A stretch of 64,000 nucleotides of DNA from Octadecabacter ascidiaceicola. GTDB taxonomy: Bacteria > Pseudomonadota > Alphaproteobacteria > Rhodobacterales > Rhodobacteraceae. A model generated the notes under the pieces. The model saw only the letters and a program-made list of their open reading frames with translations, had not been told where the DNA came from and did no database searches. Below are positions 37,261-40,218 of this stretch, in pieces. Each line of letters begins with the position of its first letter. Position 1 is the first letter of the stretch. The position numbers and the translations under genes were made by a program. The stretch is from contig NZ_FXYD01000001.1 of NCBI RefSeq assembly GCF_900185015.1, forward strand, positions 186,001-250,000. Reading direction: 5' to 3'.

Positions 37261-39093
37261 TTATCCTTCGTCATACCACCAGACATCTGGCTGCCAACCG
37301 GGCCAATCGCCGAAGATCGGCATGGTTTCGGGGTAGTGCAGGTTTTTGTCATGGGCGATGCGGCTGATGTTCCACTGATAGATCGGGATCACGTAGCGCC
37401 CTGAGGTCAGTAAACGGTCGAGGCCGCGAGTTGCCGCGAGGAAGTCGTCTTGGCTGGGGGATGTCAGCAAGTGGTCGATCATTGCGTCAATCGCTTCGGA
37501 CTTAACGCCCATCAGATTACGACCGCCTTCGACGTCAGCCCCTTCAATGCCCCAGTAGAGGTATTGCTCGTTACCCGGGGACAGGGACAGACCGCGGCGG
37601 TAGTAGGTCATGCCGAAATCATAGACATCCGTGCGTTCGGAATATTGCGCGTTGTCGACGACGGTGATCGTCGGCGTGATGCCAAGGCGGCTAAGGCTTT
37701 CGACAAACATATCCACTATGGACTGGTTTTCGCTTGAGCCCGATTTGAGCAGGATTTCAAAGGTAAACGCTTCGCCGTCAGCATTCGCCATCACGCCGTT
37801 CTGAACGGTGTAGCCCGCCTGTTCCATCAGATCGAGGGCAGCGCCGATGTTGGCGCGGTTGCGCTCGGATCCGTCAGAAACGGGCAGGGCGTAGCCGGTA
37901 ATGGCATCGGCAGGGATTTGATCCGCGAAAGGTTCAAGCATTTCCAACACGCGGCCCGTGGCGGGGCCTTCTTGCATCGCCAGTGGCGAGTTTGAGAAAT
38001 ACGACGTGATGCGGGGCTGCGCGCCGCCTGTCATCGTGTCGTTGATGAATTCAAAGTTAAACGCGTGGATCATCGCATCGCGCACGCGGATGTCTTCAAA
38101 CTGCGGCAAACGGGTGTTCATCACGAAGCCTGTGATCCCAGATGGGCGCGAGTGCGGCAGGATAGAGCGCACAAAGTCGCCGGACTGCATCAGCGCGAAA
38201 TCATACTGGCTGTCCCATTTGGCGACGTTGAATTCACGGTTTGAATTGATTTCGCCCACTTTGAACGCCTCAAACGCAGCGGTTTCGTCGCCAAAGAACT
38301 CCATACGGATCGTGTCGAGGTTATAAAGCCCGTTCACAAACGGCACGACGTCCGCGCCCCAATAGTCGGGGTTGCGGGTCATCTCGATATGACGACCGGC
38401 TTCAAAGTCGGTGATGATGTACGGCGACGACGTGACGGGGATCACATCGAGGCCGGATTCAGCGAAGTCGAGGCCTTCCCATTGGGATTTCTGCAAAATT
38501 GGGCGCAGCCCCGCCAGAAGCGCCAATTCGCGGTCTTCTTCGTTGAAATTGAACCGCACACCGCGTTCGCCGACTGCTTCGATGCTGTCCACTTTGTTAA
38601 AGAAGCCGTGGTAGCGTGGGTGGCCAACGGTGCCGAGGGTTTCATAAGACCAGATCACGTCTTCGACCGTCACGGGAGAGCCGTCAGAGAATCGGGCCTC
38701 TGGGCGGAGGGTAAATTCGACCCATGAGCGGTCTTCAGCGGTCTCAACCGATTCGGCGAGAAGGCCGTAAAGCGAAAAAGGCTCGTCCAATGAGCGGCCC
38801 ATCAGACTTTCGCCCATTAAGAAACGAAGCTGCCAATGAACCGAGCCTTTGACGATGAACGGATTGAGGCTGTCAAAGGATCCGACGTTGGCTGTGATGA
38901 TTGCACCGCCGGTTGGCGCGTCAGGGTTGGCATAGGGCAAATGCGCAAAATCTAGGGGTAGAGCAGGGTCCCCATACATAGCTATGCCATGTGTGGCCTC
39001 GGCGCTGGCGAAGGTCGCAAGTGCGGTGGTCGCCATTGCAAGCGCGGTTGTGCGCAATGTGGCACCCAGCCTTGTGAATAATCCTGTGGTCAT
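37261..39093 (-). CDS. Extracellular solute-binding protein, family 5 (peptide/opine type)
   Basis: 610 residues. A Sec signal (LGATLRTTALAMATTALATFASA) precedes the mature start EATHGIAMYGDPALPLDF, which is typical of YejA-like SBP_bac_5 proteins. GSFDSLNPFIVKG, RPEARFSDGSPVTVEDVIWSYETL and GITGFVMNTRLPQFEDIRVRDAMI follow. It should bind peptides in the periplasm for an ABC importer. The permease and ATPase genes normally next to it (yejBEF type) are absent, so it is an orphan binding protein. Confidence 0.85.
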   Translation of the reverse strand: MTTGLFTRLGATLRTTALAMATTALATFASAEATHGIAMYGDPALPLDFAHLPYANPDAPTGGAIITANVGSFDSLNPFIVKGSVHWQLRFLMGESLMGRSLDEPFSLYGLLAESVETAEDRSWVEFTLRPEARFSDGSPVTVEDVIWSYETLGTVGHPRYHGFFNKVDSIEAVGERGVRFNFNEEDRELALLAGLRPILQKSQWEGLDFAESGLDVIPVTSSPYIITDFEAGRHIEMTRNPDYWGADVVPFVNGLYNLDTIRMEFFGDETAAFEAFKVGEINSNREFNVAKWDSQYDFALMQSGDFVRSILPHSRPSGITGFVMNTRLPQFEDIRVRDAMIHAFNFEFINDTMTGGAQPRITSYFSNSPLAMQEGPATGRVLEMLEPFADQIPADAITGYALPVSDGSERNRANIGAALDLMEQAGYTVQNGVMANADGEAFTFEILLKSGSSENQSIVDMFVESLSRLGITPTITVVDNAQYSERTDVYDFGMTYYRRGLSLSPGNEQYLYWGIEGADVEGGRNLMGVKSEAIDAMIDHLLTSPSQDDFLAATRGLDRLLTSGRYVIPIYQWNISRIAHDKNLHYPETMPIFGDWPGWQPDVWWYDEG

Positions 39094-39173
39094 TTTGGTC
39101 CCGCTCCCCGGTTCAATGAATCTGTTCTTGGGGTCACGTTAGAGGTGGAAACAAACCTTTTCAAACTTTTAGC

Positions 39174-39202
39174 TTGGACGCGGGCGGGCAATTGCTTATA
39201 AG
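39174..39202 (+). promoter_or_regulatory. Sigma-70-like promoter of the candidate small RNA
   Basis: TTGGAC (39174-39179) and TATAAG (39197-39202) are separated by exactly 17 bp. The first transcribed base is probably A39209. No CDS follows before the terminator. Confidence 0.65.
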
Positions 39203-39208
39203 AAGGGC

Positions 39209-39282
39209 ACTGCTCGATAGGTTTCTTGCCTGTATGAAACCTGCCTCAATAACTTAACCCCAGCTTCGGCTGGGGTTTTTTT
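39209..39282 (+). ncRNA. Candidate trans-acting small RNA (about 74 nt)
   Basis: A well-formed promoter precedes it. The first hairpin has arms AGGTTTC (39219-39225) and GAAACCT (39236-39242) with a 10-nt loop TTGCCTGTAT. A short single-stranded linker (GCCTCAATAACTTA) leads to the terminator hairpin ACCCCAGC-TTCG-GCTGGGGT (39257-39276) with a seven-T tail. This is the layout of an Hfq-type small RNA: an unpaired loop and linker for target pairing, then a strong intrinsic terminator. The linker carries CCTGCCTC, which could pair with ribosome-binding sites. No annotated family is claimed. Confidence 0.65.
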
Positions 39283-39416: not shown

Positions 39417-40046
39417 TTAAACTGCGCCGACCCGCAGTTCGTTTTCCAAGGCTTCAATGTCCAGATCGCTGAAGTTGGACGTCGCGGCGTTTTCAAATGT
39501 CGCGTTCAAGACGTGGACGTTTGTAGTGCGCGCTTTGCGCCGTGCGTTTCGCTTTTTGGTACGGGCGCGCTGTCTTTTCTGGGATTTAGCTGCGTCATCC
39601 GCAAAAATTCCGCTGAGTTCATGTGCGCTGAAGACTTCGCCAGTTTTCAGGTGCAGAGGATTCTTGCCGGACACCAGTTCTTCCAGTTCCGCAGGGTCGA
39701 GTTCGACGTTCAGATCAAGCGGTGCGGTGTCGTCGATGACAACCGACGGCAGAACCTCTGTTGCATCAAACCAAGGGGCCTGAGCATCCGCAAAGGCGGC
39801 GTTCAGGTCGGTGACTGGCGTGTTGATGTCAGGGTAGGTGGCGTGGGTGGTTAGAACTGAGGTCGTGGAGCGGGACTGGACCTCGATACGGGCGACGGTG
39901 CCAGCAATGGGTAGATTGGTTTCAGGATCATAGCGCAGGTCAGTGCCATAAACGACGGCGCCGTGAAATACAGGTGCGGTGTCAACATTCGTGAAGGTGC
40001 CGAACAAAAAGCGCGTCTTGCCTGTATTTGAGATCATCGTATCCAT
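39417..40046 (-). CDS. Hypothetical protein with Lys/Arg-rich C-terminal segment
   Basis: 209 residues if ATG 40046 is used (MDTMISNTGKTRFLFG); the frame is open to 40118 and the start is uncertain. The first half looks beta-rich (FLFGTFTNVDTAPVFHGAVVYG, IAGTVARIEVQSR). An acidic middle (DDTAPLDLNVELDPAELEELV) is followed by a very basic patch (KSQKRQRARTKKRNARRKAR) and a final acidic tail. No signal peptide and no family recognised. The basic patch suggests nucleic-acid or membrane contact, which is inference. Confidence 0.6.
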   Translation of the reverse strand: MDTMISNTGKTRFLFGTFTNVDTAPVFHGAVVYGTDLRYDPETNLPIAGTVARIEVQSRSTTSVLTTHATYPDINTPVTDLNAAFADAQAPWFDATEVLPSVVIDDTAPLDLNVELDPAELEELVSGKNPLHLKTGEVFSAHELSGIFADDAAKSQKRQRARTKKRNARRKARTTNVHVLNATFENAATSNFSDLDIEALENELRVGAV

Positions 40047-40218
40047 TTTAGCGTCAAATCCGAAACAGTTGTCTGGTTGGCAGTGTTTTACGCGTGGTTT
40101 GTGGACAAATCGGGGCAAGGGCAGGGCAGTTTTGGTTCATATTAAGCTGGTTTGAGGGCACTCGCGCATTGTGCAGATGCAGCATATAAGGTGGCAAACA
40201 CATTGCAGGAGAAGAACC

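Follow-up and report, generated by a model that had tools for sequence, protein, structure and literature searches.

Between two genes read from the minus strand, in a window (the whole stretch of 64,000 nucleotides analysed) from Octadecabacter ascidiaceicola, lies a plus-strand unit with its own promoter and its own intrinsic terminator, i.e., the layout of a free-standing small RNA gene that had been proposed for it, and the orientation given for both neighbours also holds. The features are these.

37261 to 39093, minus strand: family-5 solute-binding protein gene (PF00496)
39156 to 39173, no strand assigned: conserved box CCTTTTCAAACTTTTAGC directly upstream of the -35 element, with a putative function taken up below
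39174 to 39202, plus strand: promoter, TTGGAC-N17-TATAAG (TTGGAC at 39174 to 39179 and TATAAG at 39197 to 39202 in the sequence)
39209 to 39282, plus strand: small RNA with a predicted length of about 72–75 nt (74 nt in the window), from fold and conservation
39218 to 39243, plus strand: 5′ hairpin of 8 bp with the 10-nt loop TTGCCTGTAT, from the fold; invariant
39227 to 39243, plus strand: pairing segment TGCCTGTATGAAACCTG, exact complement of a stretch in this genome's own dcw (mraZ) leader
39256 to 39282, plus strand: intrinsic terminator with a 9-bp stem, a TTCG loop and seven T, from the fold and a terminator scan
39417 to 40118, minus strand: 233-aa ORF with no Pfam match, between the small RNA and the dehydrogenase gene

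The gene, its promoter and its fold

The RNA contains the stretch UUGCCUGUAUGAAACC; the promoter and the border of the invariant sequence put its start at about 39209. No listed ORF of at least 40 aa overlies it, in keeping with the original prediction, the nearest ones reaching 39142 and 39405. The predicted fold has a minimum free energy of -25.5 kcal/mol (z -4.27), equalled by none of 200 shuffled sequences, and it contains the 5′ hairpin that had been noticed earlier, though with 8 bp and a 10-nt loop instead of the 7 bp first counted. The terminator with its seven Ts is borne out both by the fold and by the terminator scan. Since that scan returns 13 sites over the 5 kb scanned against 6.5 expected, a terminator by itself is weak evidence, and what takes the unit beyond chance is that the whole of it recurs across the family. 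The A/U-rich linker ahead of the U-tailed terminator would be compatible with binding of Hfq.

To what sigma factor might the promoter answer? The TTGGAC-N17-TATAAG of the original prediction is present where it had been placed, and the base before it is C at 39173, giving CTTGGAC. By manual count TTGGAC has three of its six bases in common with TTGACA, and 39174–39202 was not among the matches of a scan for sigma-70-like promoters. The logos for RpoHI and RpoHII of Rhodobacter sphaeroides, as published, have a C, TTG and a required A 22 nt past the G (PMC3441632), and in the window C, TTG, T and A stand at the logo spacing with the distance from TTG to A being equal; the promoter has neither the T that RpoHI prefers at -9 nor the C that RpoHII prefers at -14. 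According to the same source the activity of RpoHI and RpoHII promoters is not predictable from sequence alone (PMC3441632), and RpoH control in Octadecabacter is put forward here as probable by analogy with R. sphaeroides. Among 144 distinct upstream regions from relatives the consensus is CTTGGA...TATAAAG.

Directly upstream of the -35 element, the box CCTTTTCAAACTTTTAGC is conserved more strongly than the promoter spacer. With close relatives all retained in the counts, CAAACTTT is found at 115 of 137 loci that have a divergent solute-binding-protein-like gene and at none of six that have no such gene, five further loci having too little upstream sequence. The box is possibly the -35 side of the promoter of that divergent gene (TTGAAA-N17-TAACGT on the minus strand); alternatively it may be an upstream element of the small RNA promoter.

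Conservation and distribution

Of 61 genomes searched by BLAST with the 121-bp region, 35 have the small RNA, counting the window's own; the 26 without a match comprise two incomplete genomes of the same genus and 24 that belong to other families. An exact 24-nt pattern was present in at least 118 stretches, whose titles point to Rhodobacteraceae-type genera or to unresolved alphaproteobacteria. A covariance model built from the 35 copies, 18 of which had been chosen by the 24-nt pattern, recovered the RNA from 384 of the 394 genomes of the family, which span 393 genera; among the 347 good genomes it matched 345. When the class was searched with the model, 289 genomes in all, four family members matched at 100–107 bits and the 285 other alphaproteobacteria gave no convincing match, in a search whose filters lose some weak matches. 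Six non-family matches at 28.6–31.6 bits share no more than 19 of the 30 core bases and are regarded as chance.

None of the 35 aligned copies differs in the first 40 nt of the RNA. A second set of 30 genomes was made up of 24 with low scores and six picked for odd leaders; of its 29 readable copies, 22 have the 40 nt intact. Invariance does not reach the terminator stem, where changes on one side are compensated on the other: the consensus structure has 17 pairs, of which seven have two-sided changes that keep the pair, and all seven are in that stem. As the 5′ hairpin is invariant, its fold is without covariation support. Promoter and hairpin are thus both retained in relatives, as the upstream consensus and the invariant 40 nt attest, and the flanking genes are mostly kept. 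In counts over 148 loci, for which close relatives were all retained, a divergent solute-binding-protein-like gene lies upstream at 137 and a short-chain dehydrogenase-like gene (PF13561), on the same strand as the RNA, downstream at 113. The description of the gene as an ‘orphan’, if isolated is meant, is hence not sustained, its counterparts in 384 of the 394 family genomes being mostly beside the same genes. A protein similar to that of the 233-aa ORF (39417–40118) was seen at only eight of the 148 loci.

No Rfam family reaches its cut-off at the locus, so that it is no surprise that the original prediction recognised none, though the RNA does fit a published one, StsR, as discussed below. 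In the absence of such a family, annotation that depends on Rfam misses the gene. A literature search with the letters of the core returned nothing related by title among the matches listed.

Complementarity to the dcw leader

On what does the RNA act? The original prediction was that the loop and linker could pair with purine-rich ribosome-binding sites, which is not supported; the conserved partner that was found is the leader of the dcw (mraZ) operon, beside which targets at ribosome-binding sites may exist. In the same genome TGCCTGTATGAAACCTG is complementary at 17 of 17 nt to G000:C3:484919-484935 in that leader, with corresponding values of 16/16 in R. pomeroyi and 17/18 in genome G093, which is taken to be R. 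sphaeroides 2.4.1, numbered alike, because its SorY match, above the Rfam cut-off, is at 1,632,645 and the published SorY start is 1,632,642 (PMC6238624). Each of four whole genomes searched with the small RNA had one additional weak match, which in the fourth, a Paracoccus, was of 15 nt to its terminator and not to the leader.

For a broader view 394 family genomes were searched for mraZ and 92 leaders taken, i.e., those of the best 90 of 386 mraZ-positive genomes together with G093 and R. pomeroyi, a sample biased to query-like mraZ; one was too short, leaving 91. At least 15 contiguous complementary nt are present in 75 of these and at least 12 in 81, while at the latter threshold same-sense, reversed and complement-only versions of the RNA and 20 shuffled RNAs all gave 0/91. 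Most of the ten leaders with fewer than 12 nt retain the site with few changes, four of them, by our own reading, including a change to a G-U pair; one of the ten (L187) has no clear site. The paired site has a median position 210 nt upstream of the start of the mraZ match, and the paired stretch of the RNA is the loop with the 3′ arm of the hairpin. In the second set, where two of the 30 genomes were unusable and six are also in the first set of leaders, at least 11 complementary nt occur in 18 of 28 genomes, against 3 of 560 shuffled trials, the other 10 of the 28 having fewer than 11. There the small RNA is mostly fixed and the leader site slides, with either GAGGCAGGTTTCA or TTCATACAGGCAA as the paired window. 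A fixed small RNA with a sliding leader site is a natural data set on co-evolution of small RNA and target.

The interaction predicted in the window's own genome has an energy of -22.4 kcal/mol, against -8.1 (sd 3.1, minimum -18.6) for 200 shuffled leaders. That predicted for G093 is weak at -16.1 kcal/mol, a value as low as which was given by at least one of 200 shuffles (minimum -17.5), and it becomes -12.6 kcal/mol with UpsM, the RNA derived from this leader in R. sphaeroides, trimmed to its published 206 nt. The leader of the window's genome has 77% identity to UpsM over UpsM nt 47–201. In a whole-genome BLAST with UpsM the small RNA site is only one among many weak matches; it is not that search which singles out the RNA but promoter, length, terminator and conservation combined.

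Compensating changes were sought in seven variant small RNAs. In one genome, G144 (L283, L295), the small RNA has the variant loop TTAGGAAACC and a leader has CTCCTACGGG, seemingly changed in step; the case is suggestive but single, and the variant RNA and the leader have TCCTA in common. G101 has no site, G268 and G071 are ambiguous, G198 and G408 are little informative and the leader of G035 is incomplete, and with results so mixed no claim of covariation is made.

Could there be a second contact? The sequence CGAGCAG follows the pairing site in 76 of 81 aligned leaders and could pair with the 5′ CUGCUCG of the small RNA, which would make the pairing two-part. This stays a guess from the letters of the two RNAs, since neighbouring leader bases that pair with nothing appear equally conserved; in the complexes predicted for the window's genome and for G093 the 5′ end of the small RNA pairs at other places. 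Also in the leader is a hairpin-like stretch (L163:1540-1583) whose loop, CGAGCAGACATCCCCCCAGG, recurs in most leaders compared. We know of no partner for the C-run of that loop.

Correspondence with StsR and other readings

The RNA is most likely trans-acting by base pairing and most likely this organism's version of a known regulator, not an element of a new kind. StsR (sRNA targeting sRNA), the former RSs0827 of Rhodobacter sphaeroides, is described as a 72-nt RNA under RpoHI/RpoHII control that pairs with UpsM and with the dcw leader, pairing being followed by a cut by RNase E (PMC8307010, PMC11354728, PMC8625941). Cutting of UpsM is reported to require Hfq, RNase E, and RpoHI or RpoHII (PMC5089854). 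StsR binds Hfq, is induced in stationary phase and by its pairing exposes an RNase E site in UpsM. A further published target of StsR is rpoE mRNA, paired 10 nt after its start; the readable R. sphaeroides sequence gave no match for rpoE. Identification of the RNA at 39209–39282 as the StsR ortholog has a probability of roughly 0.75 and is made by these published traits, not by sequence: the pairing with UpsM and dcw, the RpoH control and the 72 nt. Its likeness to StsR is in a predicted length of about 72 nt, in RpoHI/RpoHII promoter spacing and in complementarity to UpsM and the dcw leader near an RNase E site. In G093 the copy of the small RNA is at 1,443,997–1,444,072, with a predicted length, from the A of ACTGCTC to the T run, of 72–76 nt, and the pairing site at 694,689–694,706 ends 14 nt before the published RNase E cut in UpsM at 694,720 (PMC6238624).

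If the RNA acts as StsR does, it would be transcribed from its own RpoH-type promoter, under stress and in stationary phase, and stop at its own terminator; its loop and 3′ arm (UUGCCUGUAUGAAACCUGC) would pair with the dcw (division, cell-wall) operon message at the conserved site of its long 5′ leader, and likewise with the small RNA derived from that leader, UpsM in R. sphaeroides. On the model of StsR, such pairing, possibly assisted by Hfq, would open the leader to RNase E, the level of dcw mRNA would drop and growth would slow under stress. A stress-to-division switch described for one species would then be common to nearly the whole Rhodobacter/Roseobacter family, this genome included, and testable in many of its members. 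In its accessible parts the StsR literature contains no statement on distribution across the family or on a sliding leader site, though NAR 2021 gkab491 may contain one.

What sits uneasily with the identification is that the old number RSs0827 points to a place in the chromosome other than that of the small RNA copy. RSs numbers rise along chromosome 1 (RSs0682 is at 695 kb, RSs1624 at 1,725 kb and RSs2461 at 2,598 kb), from which RSs0827 is expected at about 853 kb, in conflict with a copy at 1,444 kb. RSP_0829 (lactate dehydrogenase) was not found beside that copy among the 17 ORFs scanned, and the copy adjoins a TetR, HlyD and AcrB cluster that fits RSP_2853-55. A proposal that StsR is RSs2461 was rejected, the papers giving RSs0827 as StsR and RSs2461 as SorX. 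It could accordingly be that StsR is another gene, e.g., an R. sphaeroides terminator unit near 858 kb, some 5 kb from the expected place, and that the RNA of the window is a separate one that also pairs with the dcw leader; we consider this unlikely. That unit matches a loose promoter pattern, can pair over 11 nt (TTCACTGTCCC) with UpsM nt 5–15, and its predicted interaction with UpsM, -20.5 kcal/mol, is stronger than the -12.6 of the window-type RNA. However, a stricter scan gives it no RpoH-spaced promoter, its assumed start comes 68 nt after the end of a long same-strand ORF, of which it may be only the terminator, and a chance 11-nt match among the 30 terminators scanned is not rare (about 0.14 by our own estimate). 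Over the 340 kb of R. sphaeroides scanned as candidate places for RSs0827, only the window-type RNA joins RpoH-type spacing, 72–76 nt, a perfect terminator stem and a 12-nt match to UpsM. Were there two small RNAs that converge on UpsM, the deeply conserved one would be the unstudied one; that such a separate, so far unstudied RNA is present in nearly every genus, with its 40 nt fixed largely by pairing to the dcw leader, is similarly on the unlikely side.

Much less probable than a separate RNA, and in our judgement hardly to be expected, is a mode of action mainly by blocking ribosome-binding sites with CCTGCCTC: CCTGCCTCA is indeed invariant and in some divergent leaders part of it is used for pairing, but the conserved paired site is about 210 nt upstream of the start of the mraZ match and the anti-Shine-Dalgarno motif CCUCCUCCC is absent from the small RNA. 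Least probable of all is that what is conserved is not a trans-acting RNA but an element of the DNA or of a leader, e.g., a terminator with attenuator before the dehydrogenase gene, for although a gene like the PF13561 gene is downstream on the same strand at 113 of the 148 loci, an opposite-strand ORF separates the two in the window, invariance stops short of a terminator stem that varies with compensation, and the antisense match to the dcw leader would be left unexplained.

Among other RNAs with which the StsR-like RNA may be compared, UpsM and the dcw 5′ leader of R. sphaeroides are its conserved pairing target and not the RNA itself. The loop motif of the CcsR RNAs is the anti-Shine-Dalgarno CCUCCUCCC, and this CcsR-type motif was not found in the sequence of the window RNA. 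CcsR1-4 (the RSs0680a family) resemble it as RpoH-linked short RNAs of R. sphaeroides; they are reported to be processed from a ccaF1 precursor, whereas it has its own promoter. Two RNAs of Paracoccus denitrificans, Intergenic 60 and Intergenic 134, may be likened to it by their description: both are expressed, they measure 80 and 84 nt, and conservation throughout Rhodobacteraceae is reported for them (PMC5107571). The best Rfam score at the locus was for SorY (RF02651), a stress RNA of R. sphaeroides of similar size and with a terminator, but membership is rejected, at 23.5 bits against a gathering cut-off of 111 and with SorY at a separate locus in G093, at 1,632.6 kb. SorY-like RNAs were themselves detected in 370 of the 394 family genomes at E≤0.001, with one (G093 locus L149) above 111 bits, and the SorY family may be much wider than the Rfam cut-off allows.
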